49,115 bases of DNA, taken from Candidatus Oscillibacter excrementigallinarum. Its GTDB lineage: Bacteria > Bacillota > Clostridia > Oscillospirales > Oscillospiraceae. Made by a program: the position numbers and the translations under genes. Positions 3,794-30,824 of the stretch are shown in pieces (the stretch's first letter is position 1; the number at the start of each line of letters is the position of its first letter). Below the pieces are notes generated by a model, which was not told the DNA's origin, ran no database searches, and saw only the letters and a list, made by a program, of their open reading frames with translations. The stretch lies in the NCBI GenBank assembly GCA_019118245.1, contig DWZJ01000030.1, forward strand, positions 1-49,115, written 5' to 3'.

Positions 3794-5068
3794 ATGACTG
3801 CTTATTCCAAGATGACCGCCGAGGAGCGGAAGGCGGAATACGCCGAGGTGACCCGGGAGTACGAGGGGCTGAAGGCCCGGGGCCTGAATCTGAACATGGC
3901 CCGGGGCAAGCCCGGCAAGGCACAGCTGGACCTGGTCAGCGATATCTTCTCCCTGATGCTGAAGCCGGAGGACTATGTGTCCGACGGCATCGACGTGCGC
4001 AACTACGGCGAGCTCAGCGGCCTGCCCGCCGCCAAGCGGCTGTTCGCGGAGATCCTGGGCTGCAAGCCGGAGCAGGTGTTCGTGGGCGGCAACGCCAGCC
4101 TGCAGCTGATGTACGACACCATCTCCAAGGCCTACACCCACGGCCTGCTCCGCAGCGAGCGGCCCTGGTGCAAGGAGCCGGTGGTGAAGTTCCTGTGCCC
4201 CTCTCCCGGCTATGACCGCCATTTCAAGGTGACGGAGTCCTTCGGCTTCGAGCTCATCACCATCCCCATGACCGACGAGGGCCCGGACATGGACGCGGTG
4301 GAGAAGGCCATCCAGGACCCGGCCGTCAAGGGCATGTGGAACGTGCCCAAGTACTCCAACCCCGACGGCATCATCTACTCTGCCGAGACCATCCGCCGCA
4401 TCGCCTCCATGAAGCCCGCGGCACCGGACTTCCTGCTGATGTGGGACAACGCCTACTGCATCCATGAGTTCGAGGGGGACTATATGGAGTTCCCGGACAT
4501 CCTGGCGGAGTGCGCCAAGTACGGCAACGCCGACATGGTGTTCGAGTTCGCCTCCACCTCCAAGGTGACCCTGCCCGGCGCCGGCATCTCCTGCTTCGCC
4601 TGCTCCGAGGCCAACATGGCCTATATGGAGAAGCTGCTGACCGTCCAGGTCATCAGCTTCGACAAGGTGAACCAGCAGCGCCATGTGCTGTACCTGAAGG
4701 ACAAGGCACACACCCTGGAGCTGATGAAGAAGCACGCCGCCATCATGGGTCCCAAGTTCCGCTGCGTGGTGGACGCCCTGGACCGGGAGATCGCCCCGCT
4801 GGAGATCGCCTCCTGGCGGCGGCCCAAGGGTGGCTACTTCGTCTCCCTGTACGCCATGCCCGGCACCGCCAAGCGGACCCTGGCCCTGTGCAAGGAGGCG
4901 GGCGTCACCATGACCGGCGCCGGCGCTACCTTCCCCTATGGCAAGGACCCCCAGGATAGCAACATCCGCATCGCCCCGTCCCTGCCGCCTGTTGAGGAGC
5001 TGGAGCAGGCCATCGCCGTGCTGTGCGTGTGCCTGAAGATGGCGGCCCTGGAGTGCTTGGGCGTATGA
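3794..5068 (+). CDS. Class Ic aspartate-type aminotransferase
   Basis: The 424-residue PLP enzyme starts with the family-typical LNLNMARGKPGKAQLDL (31-47). It then has RNYGELSGLPAAKRLFAE (69-86), CPSPGYDRHF (135-144), the PLP-pyridine aspartate in WDNAY (D218) and the Schiff-base lysine in STSKVTLPG (K257). This layout is the type Ic aspartate aminotransferase family, distinct from class Ia AspC. It should interconvert aspartate and glutamate with their keto acids in the cytoplasm. The ATG at 3794 follows AAAGGAAG. Its stop overlaps the next start as ATGA, so the two genes are translationally coupled. Confidence 0.9.
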   Translation: MTAYSKMTAEERKAEYAEVTREYEGLKARGLNLNMARGKPGKAQLDLVSDIFSLMLKPEDYVSDGIDVRNYGELSGLPAAKRLFAEILGCKPEQVFVGGNASLQLMYDTISKAYTHGLLRSERPWCKEPVVKFLCPSPGYDRHFKVTESFGFELITIPMTDEGPDMDAVEKAIQDPAVKGMWNVPKYSNPDGIIYSAETIRRIASMKPAAPDFLLMWDNAYCIHEFEGDYMEFPDILAECAKYGNADMVFEFASTSKVTLPGAGISCFACSEANMAYMEKLLTVQVISFDKVNQQRHVLYLKDKAHTLELMKKHAAIMGPKFRCVVDALDREIAPLEIASWRRPKGGYFVSLYAMPGTAKRTLALCKEAGVTMTGAGATFPYGKDPQDSNIRIAPSLPPVEELEQAIAVLCVCLKMAALECLGV

Positions 5069-5934
5069 GATACTACGGAAGCGTCTACCGTCCGCCCTCC
5101 GAGGCGTACAGCCTCATCGTCCAGGTGACCTACGGATGCAGCCACAACACCTGCGCCTTCTGCAGTATGTTCAAGGAGAAGCGATTTGCCATCCGTCCCC
5201 TGGAGGAGGTGCTGGAGGACTTCCGCATCGCCCGGCGGACCTATGCCCGGGTGGGCCGGGTGTTCCTGGCGGATGGCGACGCATTGGTCCGGAAAGCTGA
5301 TGAACTTTACACCATCCTGGACACCATCCGGGAGCTGTTCCCGGAGTGCGAGCGGGTCACCAGCTACGCGTCCCCTGCCTCCATCCGCATCCGGACGGAG
5401 GAGGAGCTGCGGACGTTGCGGGACAAGGGCCTCACCATGGTCTACATGGGGCTGGAGTCCGGGTGCGATGATGTCTTAAAACGGATGCGCAAGGGCCACA
5501 TGTCCGCGGAGATCGTGGAGATGGGCCAGAAGGTCCGCCGGTGCGGCATGGCCCTGTCCGTCACCGCCATCACGGGCCTGGGCGGCCCGGAGCTGCTGGA
5601 GCGCCACGCCATCGAAACGGCGGAGGCCTTCAACGCCATGAACCCGGAGTACATCGGGATGCTGACGCTGATGGTGGAGCCGGAGACGCCCCTCTATGAC
5701 TGGGTGAAGGACGGCAGCTTCCAGCTGCTGACCCAGCCCCAGGTGCTGGAGGAGACCCGCCTGCTGATGGAGCGTCTGGACAGCCCCGGCAGCGTGTTCC
5801 GGATGAACCACGCCAGCAACTACCTGGTGCTGAAAGGCACGCTGAACCAGGACAAGGAGGCCATGCTCCGAACCATCGACGCGGCGGAGCACGACCTGAG
5901 CCGTCTCCGTCCCGAGGAGTGGCGGGGCCTGTAA
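5065..5934 (+). CDS. Radical SAM protein
   Basis: The 289-residue protein has the iron-sulfur motif in TYGCSHNTCAFCSMF, with cysteines at 25, 30 and 33. It also has a GLESG-type motif (YMGLESGCDDVLKRM) and an IT.I.GLGG strand, typical of the COG1032-like radical SAM group. The cluster spacing is CX4CX2C rather than the textbook CX3CX2C; I recall similar GCSHN.C.FC motifs in this subgroup, so it is probably functional. No B12-binding or TRAM domain is present. The start overlaps the aminotransferase stop (ATGA). The reaction is unknown; the coupling hints at amino-acid or cofactor chemistry. Confidence 0.85.
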   Translation: MRYYGSVYRPPSEAYSLIVQVTYGCSHNTCAFCSMFKEKRFAIRPLEEVLEDFRIARRTYARVGRVFLADGDALVRKADELYTILDTIRELFPECERVTSYASPASIRIRTEEELRTLRDKGLTMVYMGLESGCDDVLKRMRKGHMSAEIVEMGQKVRRCGMALSVTAITGLGGPELLERHAIETAEAFNAMNPEYIGMLTLMVEPETPLYDWVKDGSFQLLTQPQVLEETRLLMERLDSPGSVFRMNHASNYLVLKGTLNQDKEAMLRTIDAAEHDLSRLRPEEWRGL

Positions 5935-5952
5935 AAGCGAGCGAGAGCTGAC

Positions 5953-5987
5953 AAGCCGCGGAGCAACGCTCCGCGGCTTGCTTTTTT
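5953..5987 (+). terminator. Intrinsic terminator after the radical SAM gene
   Basis: A perfect 12 bp stem (5953-5964 with 5968-5979), an AAC loop, then C and six T residues. Confidence 0.92.
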
Positions 5988-6012
5988 ACAGGTCATCCAG
6001 GCGGGCGGAGCC

Positions 6013-6041
6013 TTGACAGCCCCCGCTGGAGATGGTATCCT
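6013..6041 (+). promoter_or_regulatory. Promoter of the CD3324-family gene and its leader
   Basis: TTGACA (6013-6018), 17 bp, TATCCT (6036-6041). Transcription should begin near 6048, exactly where the outer helix of the candidate leader RNA begins. Confidence 0.75.
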
Positions 6042-6047
6042 AAGAGC

Positions 6048-6159
6048 GATTTCCAAGTGAGGTGTGTGGATGTCGGTCCTGTGAGCAAAACCGAATACCG
6101 GGCTGTGAAAGGGGGGCGGCGTCCCCCTGTTTGGTGTTGCCCGGACACCTTTGGAAATC
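6048..6159 (+). ncRNA. Candidate structured leader RNA with a three-way junction
   Basis: Pairings read by eye: an outer helix of 9 bp (6048-6056 with 6151-6159), an inner helix GGTGT/ACACC (6061-6065 with 6145-6149), then two arms. One arm is TCGGT/ACCGA (6073-6077 with 6090-6094). The other is CCGGGC/GCCCGG (6098-6103 with 6139-6144), topped by GGGGG/CCCCC (6112-6116 with 6123-6127). The result is a closed three-way junction of about 112 nt that starts at the predicted transcription start. It does not match TPP, purine, c-di-GMP, ZTP or 6S RNA sequences as I know them. It could be a riboswitch-like leader or an independent small RNA. Confidence 0.45.
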
Positions 6160-6208
6160 CAACGTGAAATGAGGGAACTCCATTGCAACTGAATCATTGT
6201 GTTTCGGC

Positions 6209-6279
6209 GTTTGACGCATAGCAGAGGCTATCGCGTCAAACAAAGAGATTTGGCATATAGCCTCTGCTCATTCCAAATC
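6209..6279 (+). promoter_or_regulatory. Mutually exclusive hairpins before the CD3324-family gene
   Basis: Hairpin 1 pairs GTTTGACGC-ATAGC (6209-6222) with GCTAT-C-GCGTCAAAC (6227-6241), with one bulged C. Hairpin 3 pairs GATTTGG (6247-6253) with CCAAATC (6273-6279). Their inner parts hold AGCAGAGGCTAT (6220-6231) and its exact reverse complement ATAGCCTCTGCT (6257-6268). These 12-mers can pair with each other only if hairpins 1 and 3 are open. The GGAGGAG ribosome site follows 11 to 18 bases later. The same inverted boxes could instead be DNA operators. Confidence 0.5.
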
Positions 6280-6301
6280 ACAAGAGCTTTGGAGGAGCAT
6301 C

Positions 6302-6574
6302 ATGCGCTATATGAGAGCAGCCGACGTGCTGCCGCCGGACCTGCTGGAACAGGTCCAGGCGTATATCGACGGGGAGTATCTGTACATCCCCCGGCGGGAG
6401 ACTGAACGCAAGCCCTGGGGCGCGGCCAACGGCCGCAAGGCGGAGACCCTGGCCCGAAATCTGGAGATCTATCGGCGCTATCGGGAGGGGACCTCTGTGG
6501 ACCAGCTGGCGGAGACATACTTTCTGGCGACGAAAAGCATCTGGAAGATCATCGCCCGCCTGAGAAACGAATAA
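6302..6574 (+). CDS. CD3324 family helix-turn-helix protein
   Basis: The 90-residue protein begins MRYMRAADVLPPDLLEQVQ, has the signature DGEYLYIPRRE (about 24-34) and KPWG, and ends in a helix-turn-helix with YRRYREGTSVDQLAETYF and SIWKIIARL. This matches the CD3324 family of small clostridial DNA-binding proteins related to Mor-type HTH domains; no target is established to my knowledge. The ATG at 6302 follows GGAGGAG. It has its own promoter, a 254 nt leader with complex pairing potential, and its own terminator, so it is monocistronic and probably tightly regulated, perhaps by itself. Confidence 0.85.
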   Translation: MRYMRAADVLPPDLLEQVQAYIDGEYLYIPRRETERKPWGAANGRKAETLARNLEIYRRYREGTSVDQLAETYFLATKSIWKIIARLRNE

Positions 6575-6581
6575 AACACAG

Positions 6582-6618
6582 GCGCCATGCGGATTGCCGC
6601 ATGGCGCTTGTTTGTTTC
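6582..6618 (+). terminator. Intrinsic terminator after the CD3324-family gene
   Basis: A perfect 11 bp stem GCGCCATGCGG (6582-6592) with CCGCATGGCGC (6597-6607), an ATTG loop, then TTGTTTGTTTC. Confidence 0.85.
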
Positions 6619-6634
6619 TGAACCGAGTTGGCGG

Positions 6635-6664
6635 TTGCGAAAGCAGCCCGCAGCAGGGTATGCT
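6635..6664 (+). promoter_or_regulatory. Promoter of the RNHCP gene
   Basis: TTGCGA (6635-6640), 18 bp, TATGCT (6659-6664), ahead of the ATG at 6701. Confidence 0.55.
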
Positions 6665-6700
6665 GGGAGCAGAAAGACAACACCAAGGAGGAAATCAATC

Positions 6701-7102
6701 ATGTCCCAGCGTATCCCGCAAAAACCGAAACGCCGCCGCCCGGACTTCCGGCAGGACCCCTGCCAGGATGTGTTCACCTGCCGGGTCTGCGGCTGGCCGG
6801 TAGGGCCCCAGGCCGCCGGCACCCAGCACCGCAACCACTGTCCCAACTGCCTCTCCAGCGTTCACCTGGACGACGAGCCTGGCGACCGGGCCGCCGACTG
6901 CGGCGGCACCATGGAGCCGGTGGCCGTCTGGGTGCGGAAGGGCGGCGAGTGGGCCATCATCCACCGCTGCAAGGTCTGCGGCGTGCTCCACTCCAACCGG
7001 GTGGCGGCGGACGATGACCCCACGGTGCTGATGAGCCTGGCGGTGAAGCCCCTGGCCATGCCCCCGTTCCCGCTGGAGCGGCTGAAACGGGCGGCGGAAT
7101 AA
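6701..7102 (+). CDS. RNHCP domain-containing protein
   Basis: The 133-residue protein contains the family's name motif HRNHCPNCLSSVHLD (about residues 44-58), preceded by FTCRVCGW and followed by IIHRCKVCGVLHSNR. Together these give three CxxC pairs, which suggests two zinc-ribbon-like sites. The function of RNHCP proteins is not known; nucleic-acid binding is a guess from the zinc ribbons and the basic N-terminus (PKRRRPDFR). The ATG at 6701 follows AAGGAGGAAATC. It stands alone between a promoter and a bidirectional terminator. Confidence 0.88.
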   Translation: MSQRIPQKPKRRRPDFRQDPCQDVFTCRVCGWPVGPQAAGTQHRNHCPNCLSSVHLDDEPGDRAADCGGTMEPVAVWVRKGGEWAIIHRCKVCGVLHSNRVAADDDPTVLMSLAVKPLAMPPFPLERLKRAAE

Positions 7103-7105
7103 ACA

Positions 7106-7137
7106 AAACACCAGCGGGGGGTCCCCCGCTGGTGTTT
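7106..7137. terminator. Bidirectional terminator between RNHCP and YitT genes
   Basis: AAACACCAGCGGGGG (7106-7120) pairs with CCCCCGCTGGTGTTT (7123-7137). The arms' A/T ends give T-runs on both strands, so the hairpin can end the two convergent genes. Confidence 0.85.
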
Positions 7138-7138
7138 G

Positions 7139-8005
7139 CTATGCGATGTGCTTGAAGTTGCCCAGCGTCTCGTTGACGCCGGAGACGTAGGCGAAGGTGT
7201 CCGGGAACTGGGACAGGATCTCCTGGAACCGCACCACCTGGTGCCGGTTCACCACGCAGATCAGCAGGCACCGGGGCGTCTCAGAGTACATGCCCTCCGC
7301 CTGGAGCACGGTGACGCCGTGGTGCAGCTGGTCCATCAGCTGGTGGGACAGGGCCTCCGGCTGGCGGGTGATGACCTCGAATTTCAGGGCCGACTTGCCG
7401 CCCTTCAAAATGGCGTCGCTGATGCTGGAGCTGAGGTAGCAGTAGATCAGGCAGAGGATCACCGGCTCGAACTGGTAGCCGTAGACGAAGAAGGACAGCA
7501 CCGCCACCGTGGAGTTGAGGGCGAAGATCAGCCAGACCAGGCTGGCCTCCGGCCGCTTCTTCCGCACCCAGGCGGCCACGATGTCCGTGCCGCCGGTGGA
7601 GCCGTTCCGCCGGATGACCCAGCCGTACACGGCGCCGCTGACCACGCCGGCGGCCACAGGCCCCAGAATGGCGGAGGAGCCGGTGTCATAGGCGATGGCG
7701 CTCAGGTCCATCTGCCCCAGGACCAGGGTGACGGCGGAGAACACCAGCACGAAGGCCAGGGTCTTGCGGGCGAAGTCCCGGTCCACCTTTTTCCACGCCA
7801 GCAGGATCAGCGGCAGGTTGATGAGCAGGGAGACGTAGCCGATGTTGATGTGCAGCAGATACTGCAGCATGGTGGCCAGGCCGTTGATGCCCGCCGGGGC
7901 GAAGGCGTTGGGGAAGACGAACAGCTCATAGCTGACGCCCATCAGGCAGGCCAGGGCCGCCACGGTCAGATAGCTGCGCAGGATGTTCCAAGTGCGCTGT
8001 TCCAT
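7139..8005 (-). CDS. YitT family membrane protein
   Basis: The 288-residue protein has about five or six membrane helices in its first 190 residues, including the loop GGTDIVAAWVRKKRPE and the SDAILKGGKSALKFEVIT transition. It ends in a soluble DUF2179 domain with RGVT-like HHGVTVLQAEGMYS and VVNRHQV. YitT proteins are widespread in Firmicutes and lack a firmly known substrate. The ATG at 8005 follows GGAGGGATCC. It has its own promoter and shares a terminator with the RNHCP gene. Confidence 0.92.
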   Translation of the reverse strand: MEQRTWNILRSYLTVAALACLMGVSYELFVFPNAFAPAGINGLATMLQYLLHINIGYVSLLINLPLILLAWKKVDRDFARKTLAFVLVFSAVTLVLGQMDLSAIAYDTGSSAILGPVAAGVVSGAVYGWVIRRNGSTGGTDIVAAWVRKKRPEASLVWLIFALNSTVAVLSFFVYGYQFEPVILCLIYCYLSSSISDAILKGGKSALKFEVITRQPEALSHQLMDQLHHGVTVLQAEGMYSETPRCLLICVVNRHQVVRFQEILSQFPDTFAYVSGVNETLGNFKHIA

Positions 8006-8203: not shown

Positions 8204-8629
8204 TCAGAACTTTTTGTCCTTTGCGGTCTCGCAATAGGCGCAGCGGTAGGTGTGGGTGGCAGGATCGCTCAGCAGGAAGATGGCGTCCAGCTGGGGCTCC
8301 GCCACGGTGATGCAGCGGGGGTTCTTGCAGTGGATGATGTTCACCAGCTTCTTGGGGAGCTCCACGTGCTTCTTCTCCACCCGCACGCCGTCCCGGATGA
8401 TGTTGACGGTGATGTTGGGGTCGATGTAGCCCAGAACGTCCAGGTCCACCTCCATGGGGGAGTCGATCTTGATGATGTCCTTCTTGCCCATTCGGCCGCT
8501 GCGGACGTTCTTGATGATGGCCACGGAGCAGTCCAGCTGGTCCAGATGGAGATAGCGATAGATGTCCATGCTCTTGCCGGCCTGGATGTGGTCCAGGACC
8601 ACGCCGTTTTGGATGCTGTCGATATTCAT
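8204..8629 (-). CDS. pyrI: Aspartate carbamoyltransferase regulatory chain
   Basis: The 141-residue protein has the allosteric domain start MNIDSIQNGVVLDHIQAGKS and the C-terminal zinc site CKNPRC (about 101-106) with CAYC (about 131-134). PyrI binds nucleotides and joins PyrB trimers into the regulated dodecameric enzyme, so CTP-type feedback control is expected. Its length is near the usual 150. The ATG at 8629 follows AGGAGG. It is the last gene of the operon, 13 bp after pyrB, with two terminators after it. Confidence 0.96.
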   Translation of the reverse strand: MNIDSIQNGVVLDHIQAGKSMDIYRYLHLDQLDCSVAIIKNVRSGRMGKKDIIKIDSPMEVDLDVLGYIDPNITVNIIRDGVRVEKKHVELPKKLVNIIHCKNPRCITVAEPQLDAIFLLSDPATHTYRCAYCETAKDKKF

Positions 8630-8642
8630 AGTGTCCTCCTTC

Positions 8643-9563
8643 TCACACCTGGATGCCCAGCAGCTTCATGATCAGCGCCATGCGGATGTACTTGCCGTTC
8701 TTCACCTGTCTCCAGTAGGCGGCCCGGGGGTCCTTGTCCACCGCCACGGTGATCTCGTTGACCCGGGGCAGGGGATGGAGGATGGACAGGTCCGCCTTGG
8801 CGTGCTCCAGCTTCTCCGGCGTCAGGATGTAGCTGTCCTTCAGCCGCAGGTAGTCCTCCTCGTTGAAGAACCGCTCCTTCTGGACCCGGGTCATGTACAG
8901 GATGTCCAGCTGGGGGATGACGGACTCCAGATCCGTGGTCTGGGTGTAGGGGATGCCCTTCTTTTTCAGGGCCTCCTCCTTCACATACCGGGGCAGCTTC
9001 AGCTCCAGGGGGGAGATCAGCACATAGTTGATATTCTCATACCGGCTCAGGGCGTTCACCAGGGAGTGAACGGTGCGGCCGAATTTCAGGTCGCCGCAGA
9101 AGCCGATGGTGAAGTTGTTCAGCCGCCCTTTCTCCCGGTGGATGGTCAGCAGGTCCGTCAGGGTCTGGGTGGGGTGGTTGTGGCCGCCGTCGCCGGCGTT
9201 GATGATGGGCACCTCGCTGAACTGGGCTGCGGCGAAGGGCGCGCCCTCCTTGGGGTGCCGCATGGCGATGATGTCGGCATAGCAGCTGACGGTGTGGATG
9301 GTGTCGCCCACGGTCTCGCCCTTGGCGGTGGAGCTGGAGCTGGCCTCGGAGAAGCCCAGGGTGCTGCCGCCCAGGGCCAGCATGGCGGACTCAAAGGAGA
9401 GCCGGGTCCGGGTGGAGGGCTCGAAGAAGAGGGTGGCCAGCTGCTTGTGGGCGCAGGCGTCCTGGTACTTTGCCGGGTTGGCGATGATGTCCTCTGCGGT
9501 GGCGATCAGCTGATCGATCTCCGCCACGGAGAGGTCGGTGATGTCGATGAGATTTCTGGGCAT
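8643..9563 (-). CDS. pyrB: Aspartate carbamoyltransferase catalytic chain
   Basis: The 306-residue enzyme condenses carbamoyl phosphate with aspartate, the first committed step of pyrimidine synthesis. It has the carbamoyl-phosphate motif [13 protein letters not shown] (46-58), [12 protein letters not shown], and HPLPRVNEI near the C-terminus. Its length is standard. The ATG at 9563 follows GAAAGGAG. It works with PyrI encoded 13 bp downstream. The 95 bp gap from pyrE holds two GC-rich hairpins. Confidence 0.97.
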
Positions 9564-9597
9564 GATGGACTCCTTTCAGGGGGATGGTTGGAAGGGG

Positions 9598-9646
9598 CGC
9601 CGCCCTCCGGGCGGCGGGGGACCGCTTTCGGCCAAGCCGGAAGCGG
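9598..9646. repeat. Two intercistronic hairpins between pyrE and pyrB
   Basis: CGCCGCCC (9598-9605) pairs with GGGCGGCG (9609-9616). CCGCTTTCGGC (9622-9632) pairs with GCCGGAAGCGG (9636-9646) with one wobble. Neither has a T-run, so processing or transcript stabilisation is more likely than termination. Confidence 0.5.
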
Positions 9647-9658
9647 AACGAGCGAAGT

Positions 9659-10300
9659 TTATTTCGACGCTATCCAGGACTCGTCACTGGGATCGGCCCG
9701 GAACTTCTTCAGCCGCTCGATGTCCTCGGGGCGGATCTTGCCTTCCTCGGCGGCCACTTCACAGACGGCGTCGAAGTTGGACAGGGAGTGGTTGGTGACA
9801 TGGGCGGCGGCCAGCCGGTCCAGGCCCTTCTGGAGCCCGTAGGTGAAGATGGACGCGACGCCGAGGACCTCGGCTCCCGCCTCCCGCAGGGCTTCCACCA
9901 CCTCGATGCAGCTGCCGGCGGTGGAGATCAGGTCCTCCACCACGACCACCTTCTGGCCCTTTTCCAGCCTGCCCTCGATGCGGTTCTGGCGGCCGTGGTC
10001 CTTGTTGCCGGAGCGGACGTAGCCCATGGGCAGGTCCATCAGGTGGCCCACGATGGCGGCGTGGGCGATGCCGGCGGTGGATGTGCCCATCAGAACCTCC
10101 ACGTCCGGGTAATGGGCGCGGATCAGCTCCACCAGGCCGTTCTCCACAGCCGTGCGGACGGCGGGAGCGGTGAGGGTCAGGCGGTTGTCGCAGTAAATGG
10201 GGCTTTTGATGCCGGAGGCCCAGGTGAAGGGCTCGTCGGGGCGCAGAAACACCGCGCCGATAGACAGCAGGTCATGGGCGATTTCACGTTCCAAGTTCAT
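9659..10300 (-). CDS. pyrE: Orotate phosphoribosyltransferase
   Basis: The 213-residue enzyme joins orotate to PRPP to give OMP. It shows the N-terminal [20 protein letters not shown], the flexible-loop region [17 protein letters not shown], and the PRPP-binding motif [13 protein letters not shown] (about 118-130). Its length is normal. The ATG at 10300 follows AAAGGTTGCGTGAACT. It follows pyrF by 99 bp, a gap filled by a palindromic element. Confidence 0.97.
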
Positions 10301-30460: not shown

Positions 30461-30824
30461 GGGGGTGTACCGGTTTCGACGGGGGTATGGAGGCGGGACC
30501 AGCGGGCGGCGGCGCCTGACCGCCATAAAACGGGCAATTTATAAATCAAATAACAACAGACAAGTTGCTATTGCTGCCTAATTAAAGGCGGCCGTCTGAA
30601 CCGGGGTGGCCACAGACCGGGGAAGGCGTCGTTGATGTGGCGTCCGTGCGGCGGGTAAGAGTTGCCCCGCCCACGCATGATGACTCTCACCTGACTTCCT
30701 GGCGTGACGGCTTGCCAGGGAGGAGGGGAACCGGGAGGAAGACTCCCGCAATAACCGTCTGCGCCCGGAGAAAGTCCCGTTAAAGTGCTTTCGGACAGGG
30801 GTTCGACTCCCCTCACCTCCACCA
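30461..30824 (+). ncRNA. ssrA: Transfer-messenger RNA (tmRNA)
   Basis: The 364 nt gene starts GGGGGTGTACCGGTTTCGACGG, of which the first seven bases pair with CACCTCC before the encoded ACCA end (30821-30824). The T-arm GGGGTTCGACTCCCC (about 30798-30812) is present. The tag frame runs 30534-30581 and encodes AIYKSNNNRQVAIAA followed by TAA, so stalled proteins receive a degradation tag ending AIAA instead of the common ALAA. It works with SmpB, encoded upstream. The 3' CCA is encoded. A terminator follows at once. Confidence 0.97.

Follow-up and report, generated by a model that had tools for sequence, protein, structure and literature searches.

A probable uORF-controlled translational attenuator upstream of a CD3324-family gene in Candidatus Oscillibacter excrementigallinarum

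The 49,115 nucleotide (nt) contig DWZJ01000030.1 of Candidatus Oscillibacter excrementigallinarum (assembly GCA_019118245.1), referred to here as the window, carries on its forward strand a CD3324-family gene preceded by a structured leader at positions 6048–6301. The sequence of this leader and the modelling of its folding indicate that it is probably a ribosome-sensing translational attenuator of the Erm/toiL kind, controlled by an upstream open reading frame (uORF), and not a metabolite riboswitch. Aligned leaders of this type consist of two modules, A (6048–6159) and B (6171–6301), with A located directly before B in 6/8. Judged by its sequence, the putative attenuator is a new family, with no Rfam match in the window leader or in 17 related loci, where only two tRNAs were recognised.

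Segments, covariation and ribosome-dependent opening of module B

Module B starts with uORF2 (6171–6221, forward strand, as are all features of the leader), which consists of a Shine-Dalgarno (SD) sequence GAGGG at 6171–6175 and an open reading frame (ORF) running from a TTG codon at 6183 to a TAG stop at 6219–6221, encoding MQLNHCVSAFDA. This 12-codon frame with GAGG upstream was present in 9/9 Oscillibacter-type leaders, with TTG as first codon in eight and CTG in the ninth (L013). The uORF ends inside alternative helices which cover the start of the CD3324 gene. Segment a (6209–6217) pairs with a' (6233–6241) to form helix Z, and the switch segment b (6220–6231, AGCAGAGGCTAT) sits in the loop of this helix; b pairs with b' (6257–6268, ATAGCCTCTGCT) to form helix X, which excludes helix Z. 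Segment y (6271–6277) pairs with 6288–6294 over the CD3324 SD (GGAGG, 6291–6295), TGCTC at 6265–6269 also pairs with GAGCA at 6295–6299, and a further partner of a, designated a'', corresponds to the start region of the CD3324 gene itself. The leader thus has ORFs with an SD between promoter and gene (uORF1 of module A and uORF2 in the window) as well as helices that cannot form together, one of them masking the CD3324 SD.

We propose that this leader joins module A, with its 4-codon uORF1, to module B as the switch for CD3324. In the absence of a ribosome, or once one has reached or passed the uORF2 stop, pairing of a with a' or a'', combined with y:SD and b':SD pairing, would bury the CD3324 SD and start codon. 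A ribosome translating uORF2 and stalled about five codons before its stop would cover a and leave b free to pair with b', whereupon b' and a would leave the start region and CD3324 would become translatable, stalling being the presumed ON state. The signal is probably translation stress, for instance a ribosome-targeting antibiotic, and module A may serve as a second sensor.

The mutually exclusive helices co-vary, as established by comparison of an initial alignment of 16 leaders and a later one of 30 distinct leaders, which was fitted to a covariance model of module B (R2). Helix b:b' was paired in 94.2% of cells in the 16 leaders, with 6/12 pairs changed on both sides and 0/500 shuffles equalling it on all five measures, and in 94.7% of cells in the 30 leaders. 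For a:a' with its inner pairs, 78.7% of cells were paired and 24 cells had changed on both sides (16 leaders, score reached by 0/500 shuffles), while y:SD was paired in 76.0% of cells (score reached by 1/500 shuffles) and in 78.9% in the larger set. We also compared the pairings of each leader's own segments with pairings to the segments of other leaders, a swap test which is independent of alignment columns. Own pairings surpassed swapped pairings for a:a', b:b', a:a'' and y:SD (0/20000 permutations each), and the controls b:SD and a:b' were not significant. With 14 held-out leaders, the own pairing was matched by 1 (a:a'), 1 (b:b'), 2 (a:a'') and 116 (y:SD, the weakest of the four) of 20000 permutations, compared with 5222 for b:SD, 957 for a:b' and 5109 for a:y as controls; with all 30 leaders the a:y control was reached by 303/20000. 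By these sequence comparisons all four pairings co-vary, held-out leaders included.

Opening of the start site depended on ribosome position in the computed folds. In a first folding test, with 16 leaders ending at the ATG and lacking gene context, mean b:b' pairing rose from 0.49 to 0.77 once a ribosome covered a, and opening was cheaper with the ribosome on a than with b covered too (8.97 kcal/mol, P 0.001). The later test used 30 leaders extended by 20 nt on the 5' side and by 12 nt into the gene, and gave a mean opening cost of 9.2 kcal/mol for the free RNA, 7.4 with the leading edge of the ribosome at b-3 and 7.1 with the edge at b, against 12.4–13.5 from b+9 onward and 10 to 11 with the edge further upstream. 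The edge at b improved on the free RNA by over 0.3 in 23/30 leaders (P 1.2e-4), and for the window leader itself the costs were 11.6 (free), 7.4 (edge at b) and 13.4 kcal/mol (from b+9 on). Shuffling everything 5' of y abolished the gain (-0.14 versus 2.07; n=120 controls, 30 leaders). The model thus predicts that the start site is cheapest to open with the leading edge at b, which for the usual ribosome footprint puts the P site some five codons upstream of the stop.

The switch was also found outside the window's genus. Model R2 found 25 copies of module B in 21/391 class genomes (E<=0.01), of which 11 were model-building sequences and 14 were not. Every one of the 25 runs up to a start codon, which belongs to CD3324 in 21 cases and to DUF1062 in four (L149, L154, L158 and L160; two called by Pfam, the others by tblastn); the start codon is part of R2, the downstream gene family is not. 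The CD3324 protein was found in 9/86 genus genomes including the window's (E<=1e-10), 8/9 with a copy at 81–100% identity, and the family in 42/291 class genomes, again including the window's; no relatives of the protein were found in viral contigs. Among 47 other CD3324 leaders, ten, labelled as belonging to nine other families, displayed the order a-b-a'-b'-y-SD by eye. Upstream sequences of CD3324 contained uORFs with SD and ATG in 25/47 cases, versus 7.4 ± 1.9 in shuffles, with a few of these being chance frames such as the tail of the upstream gene in L057. Such a uORF lay before b in 20 of the 30 distinct leaders, and in 16/20 its stop was located exactly 1 nt before b, irrespective of whether this was TAG, TAA or TGA (P 2.5e-5 versus the 1/3 expected from frame alone, with lineages that are not entirely independent). 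Two of the remaining four are Oscillibacter-type rows in which the TTG ORF was not counted. The peptides of these uORFs are diverse (for example MREYIFYA, MTIDIFNA, MKTPSIIA and MLNPIVMVA), hence a sensor of ribosome position fits better than a sensor of a single amino acid.

Module A and its mini-ORF

The transcript was predicted to start from a sigma-A type promoter at 6013–6041, with a TTGACA -35 box (6013–6018), a 17 nt spacer and an extended -10 box TATCCT (6036–6041) preceded by TG. This was the sole promoter-like site in a scan of 5000–8000, where shuffles gave 0.4 ± 0.7, and comparable promoters were seen by eye upstream of module A in relatives. An earlier reading made from the sequence alone had called this a good sigma-A promoter, which the scan bore out, and had put the transcript start at about 6048, which is plausible. 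In the fold, module A, of which a covariance model (R1) was built, forms a closed domain (6048–6159) with a 9 base pair (bp) closing helix of 6048–6056 and 6151–6159. The RNA of 6048–6160 folds at -51.4 kcal/mol (z -4.2, equalled by 0/200 shuffles) and the full leader (6048–6310) has a z of -4.1. The minus strand also folds stably (z -5.1), as inverted repeats would, and we assign the function to the plus strand on the basis of the SD sequences, ORFs and promoter.

Within this domain lies uORF1 (6059–6084), which has an SD GAGGTG at 6059–6064 and the ORF ATG TCG GTC CTG TGA at 6070–6084, encoding MSVL. The best conserved stretch of module A, GAGGTGTGTGGATGTCGGTCCTGTGA in the window, corresponds to the SD plus this ORF with its stop. 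The mini-ORF was present in all seven fused Oscillibacter-type leaders, window included, in which module A directly precedes module B, and reads MSVL in five, MSAL in one and MSVQI in one; the seventh of these leaders (G361) was recovered by model R1. Matches to R1 were found in 10/86 genus genomes at E<=0.1, including the window itself and one weak match, and in 2/400 family genomes, both from the window's genus. The weak match (G378, E 0.03) has the same core with MSVIR upstream of a gene for an RsgA-like GTPase, as does a Clostridiales metagenome-assembled genome (L040) with MSVRS; Paenibacillus sanguinis (L042) has the core with MSVLR, and an RsgA-like gene was not found in the stretch examined. 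These last two came from a pattern scan of genome contigs, which returned ten stretches (five Oscillibacter-type, these two RsgA-type cores and three judged by eye to be chance), and since the search pattern contained ATGTCGG, the independent evidence from them is limited to the SD spacing and the stop. Two further instances surfaced without a search for module A: G531, with an MSVVR core (by eye) upstream of an RsgA-like gene, and G859, with a 12/12 promoter match followed by the same core with the 11-codon MSVLSVYRVLN, and module B plus CD3324 about 270 nt beyond it. The latter region (L140, 1180–1497) shows the A core, a terminator-like hairpin near 1456–1480 and then B, and resembles the tandem of the window with a longer spacing. 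The in-frame stop of the core ORF alternates between TGA and TAA.

A pattern for the module A core, run over 73 class loci, matched the window's own copies as well as G531 and G859, and no others. In viral contigs the long form of the pattern gave 0 matches and the short form 11, judged by eye to be chance. Searching 300 family genomes with the leader by blastn gave, beyond the window itself, only 22–27 nt matches which were taken as chance, and gave no matches in phages and plasmids; blastn of the L042 leader likewise gave no matches. In two genomes, G379 and G303, module A still lies behind a radical-SAM gene and is separated from module B and CD3324, which are about 2.9 kb downstream behind other genes in G379 and on another contig in G303, and in both the module has decayed, with the stop lost, the frame running to 31 codons and the SD altered. 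The 2.9 kb between A and B in G379 (L028) contain a helix-turn-helix-like gene and other small ORFs.

The RsgA-type module A leaders finish, as seen by eye, in a terminator-like hairpin. We considered terminator switching by module A in four RsgA-type leaders and did not find it, as the terminator-like stem stayed at at least 0.89 with a ribosome within 24 nt past the ATG. In the window, a pattern scan found no intrinsic terminator at 6130–6301, between leader and CD3324, and made weak calls on the module A hairpin only. The RsgA-like genes of L114, L115, L122, L127 and L128 were seen by eye to have uORF leaders of their own, for example MFNNKTFENVISWEVHTK and MLINRLLAEIVFVWEVNTI, with GGGAGGT..ACCTCCC-like hairpins.

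Alternative explanations and gene neighbourhood

Several results weigh against the proposed attenuator. In the 16-leader folding test the probability of an open SD was 0.16 both in free RNA and with a ribosome on a, the opening cost fell from 7.35 to 6.63 kcal/mol relative to free RNA with a P of 0.43, and the y:SD hairpin persisted in the ON fold. The number of helix Z pairs with double changes was reached by 342/500 shuffles, and for y:SD the double-change pairs were reached by 85/500 and further pair types by 484/500. An SD with ATG before b is missing from 10/30 leaders, and uORF2 of the window begins with TTG; two of the 30 read through b in another frame and stop in a', and we recognised no known stall motif by eye in the uORF peptides. 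For module A there was no covariation in nine sequences, a simulated ribosome on uORF1 left the CD3324 start closed (12.1 to 13.3), the terminator-like stem of RsgA-type leaders was hardly altered by a uORF1 ribosome until 30 nt past the ATG, and R1 failed on the G859 and L042 copies, which implies that the common feature is the core and not the entire fold.

The sequence-only reading had presented a closed three-way junction in a ligand- or protein-sensing leader or a small RNA processed from it, and a metabolite riboswitch with 6048–6159 as aptamer and the remainder down to 6301 as expression platform would explain why the transcript begins with a stable fold, the strong conservation of the 5' half and the SD-masking platform downstream. 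We nevertheless regard it as very unlikely. The helices of the junction can form, but with pairs taken from the fold of 6048–6160 double-sided changes occurred in only 2/42 pairs of the whole junction and its covariation score was matched by 180/500 shuffles, so that the junction with its inner arms gains no support from these relatives, and the lack of covariation which that reading had named as refuting is what module A showed; the comparison covers nine sequences that differ little from one another, among them two decayed copies. In the closing helix, the eight outer pairs are intact in 97% of cells (nine sequences, window included), which says little because this helix scarcely varies. The conserved core is an SD plus an ORF whose in-frame stop varies, module B lacks an adjoining A in L011 and L012, the A core pattern matched none of the 73 class loci beyond the window's own copies, G531 and G859, and the co-varying module lies downstream. 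The leader had been said to fit no familiar riboswitch family, and indeed it was unmatched by Rfam at gathering score, where a tmRNA gene (30461–30824, plus strand, RF00023, 132.7 bits) was the only match in the window, and gave only chance-level matches up to E 10. The promoter, fold and junction of the earlier reading were thus partly confirmed and its interpretation as a sensing leader partly supported: a structured regulatory leader does stand at the 5' end of the CD3324-family transcript, but the mini-ORF at 6070–6084 and the better supported switch at 6171–6301 had been missed.

The 12 bp inverted repeat formed by b and b' might instead be a DNA operator for the CD3324 protein, which resembles Mor activators, with autoregulation in place of RNA switching. 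This too is highly improbable, as b:b' contains 28 G-U cells versus 19 unpaired cells out of 358, and an RNA helix tolerates G-U where a DNA dyad does not; furthermore, the same leader precedes DUF1062 genes, the other three pairings also co-vary, and the position of the uORF stop is fixed. A less remote alternative, although still unlikely in our judgement, concerns module A only, which could be a functionless relic of the leader of an RsgA-like gene fused to B, leaving B as the sole regulator. The order A-RsgA-B-CD3324-RNHCP in G531 compared with A-B-CD3324-RNHCP in the window favours this, as do the lack of any uORF1-ribosome effect on the CD3324 start in folding and the two relatives without A beside B. 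Conversely, 7/7 fused leaders have retained uORF1, its SD and the closing helix, whereas the two genomes in which A is separated from B (G379 and G303) show a missing stop and a changed SD, and in G859, a member of a different family, the A core again lies upstream of B without an intervening RsgA gene. The last case weakens the idea that an RsgA gene may have been lost between A and B in the window lineage.

Downstream of the attenuator proposed here, the CD3324-family gene (6302–6574) encodes a Mor-like protein of 90 amino acids (NF040785, 109 bits with the cut-off at 65; PF08765, 38.7 bits), followed by an RNHCP-domain gene (6701–7102, plus strand, PF12647, 132.6 bits) as part of a conserved neighbourhood. 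All six extended Oscillibacter-type loci that were tested have RNHCP behind CD3324, and it is also near CD3324 in G531 and L157; in G859 the order is A-B-CD3324, a GTPase gene that gave a partial match to RsgA-like proteins, and RNHCP. An RsgA-like gene adjoins CD3324 in G531, G736, G734, G556, G785, G378 and G859, and was found in 4/47 class loci with short fixed flanks; DUF1062 adjoins it in G640, G757, G718, G686, G826, G863, G776 and G859. The RsgA-like protein of G378 passes TIGR00157 (169.7 versus a cut-off of 100), and no match of this kind was present in the window's genome at E<=1e-90. Searching PDB by sequence for relatives of the RNHCP or DUF1062 proteins gave only weak chance matches. 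On the minus strand of the window, 8204–10300 seems, by eye, to carry a pyrimidine gene cluster with PyrI-, PyrB- and PyrE-like ORFs.

Attenuators that depend on ribosome stalling often control inducible resistance or ribosome-rescue factors, as is the case for erm and hflXr. It is possible, although we advance it only tentatively, that the RsgA-like GTPase, CD3324, RNHCP and DUF1062 make up a class-wide translation-stress set, with uORF switches before several of its genes and two serial sensors before a single gene in the window. If so, one transcript in the window would read two stalling events, and the set would be a hitherto undescribed antibiotic-response or ribosome-rescue system. The putative attenuator family upstream of CD3324 and DUF1062, together with a related element upstream of RsgA-like genes, offers a testable clue to the signals to which these uncharacterised proteins respond, and relatives of the switch precede poorly understood genes in other clostridia. 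It also illustrates that a riboswitch-like conserved 5' core can turn out to be a tiny ORF.

Two other classes of CD3324 leader were noted by eye. The second class (L016, L017, L056, L058, L059, L061, L075, L076, L078, L086, L087 and L090) has CTCCATGCAAAG- or CTCTGTACAAAG-like repeats in the order a-b-c-a'-c'-b' and uORFs such as MTKLNEEWLHAKPVDCDICME in L016, and looks like another attenuator design. The third (L060, L062, L064, L068, L071, L073, L074, L077, L083, L084 and L091) has terminator-like hairpins, CACGAT..ATCGTG with a T run or similar, behind short ORFs, and possibly functions by transcription attenuation.

Comparison with known systems

The protein downstream of the leader is a member of NF040785 and PF08765, and we found no leader described for either in the open-licence papers searched. 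In the same literature we found no paper on the CD3324 family (the string occurs only in papers which by their titles concern nematode detection), isolated mentions of DUF1062, the string RNHCP only in chemistry papers, and no description of leader peptides for RsgA or Mor. In Erm-type attenuators such as ermC, 1:2 and 3:4 pairing masks the SD, and stalling favours 2:3 pairing. Module B would follow the same pairing logic, but its downstream genes are not methyltransferases, most of its uORFs of 7–12 codons end inside segment 1, and no known macrolide stall motif was recognised by eye.

For the RsgA-like genes, the nearest parallel is hflXr (lmo0762) of Listeria, a paralogue of a housekeeping ribosome GTPase which is preceded by a uORF leader and controlled by transcription attenuation with an RLR peptide (PMC6310831), whereas module B as read here would act on translation. 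The closest described mechanism to that proposed for the window leader is that of toiL, a uORF in the topAI-yjhQ transcript of E. coli, where a structure masks the downstream ribosome-binding site and opens on stalling at certain codons (PMC12121999). Compared by mechanism and not by sequence, the two share a short uORF and a masked downstream ribosome-binding site. Unlike toiL, module B combines four separate pairings with a common stop position and many unrelated uORF peptides, precedes two gene families, and in the window forms part of a leader with two uORFs in series.
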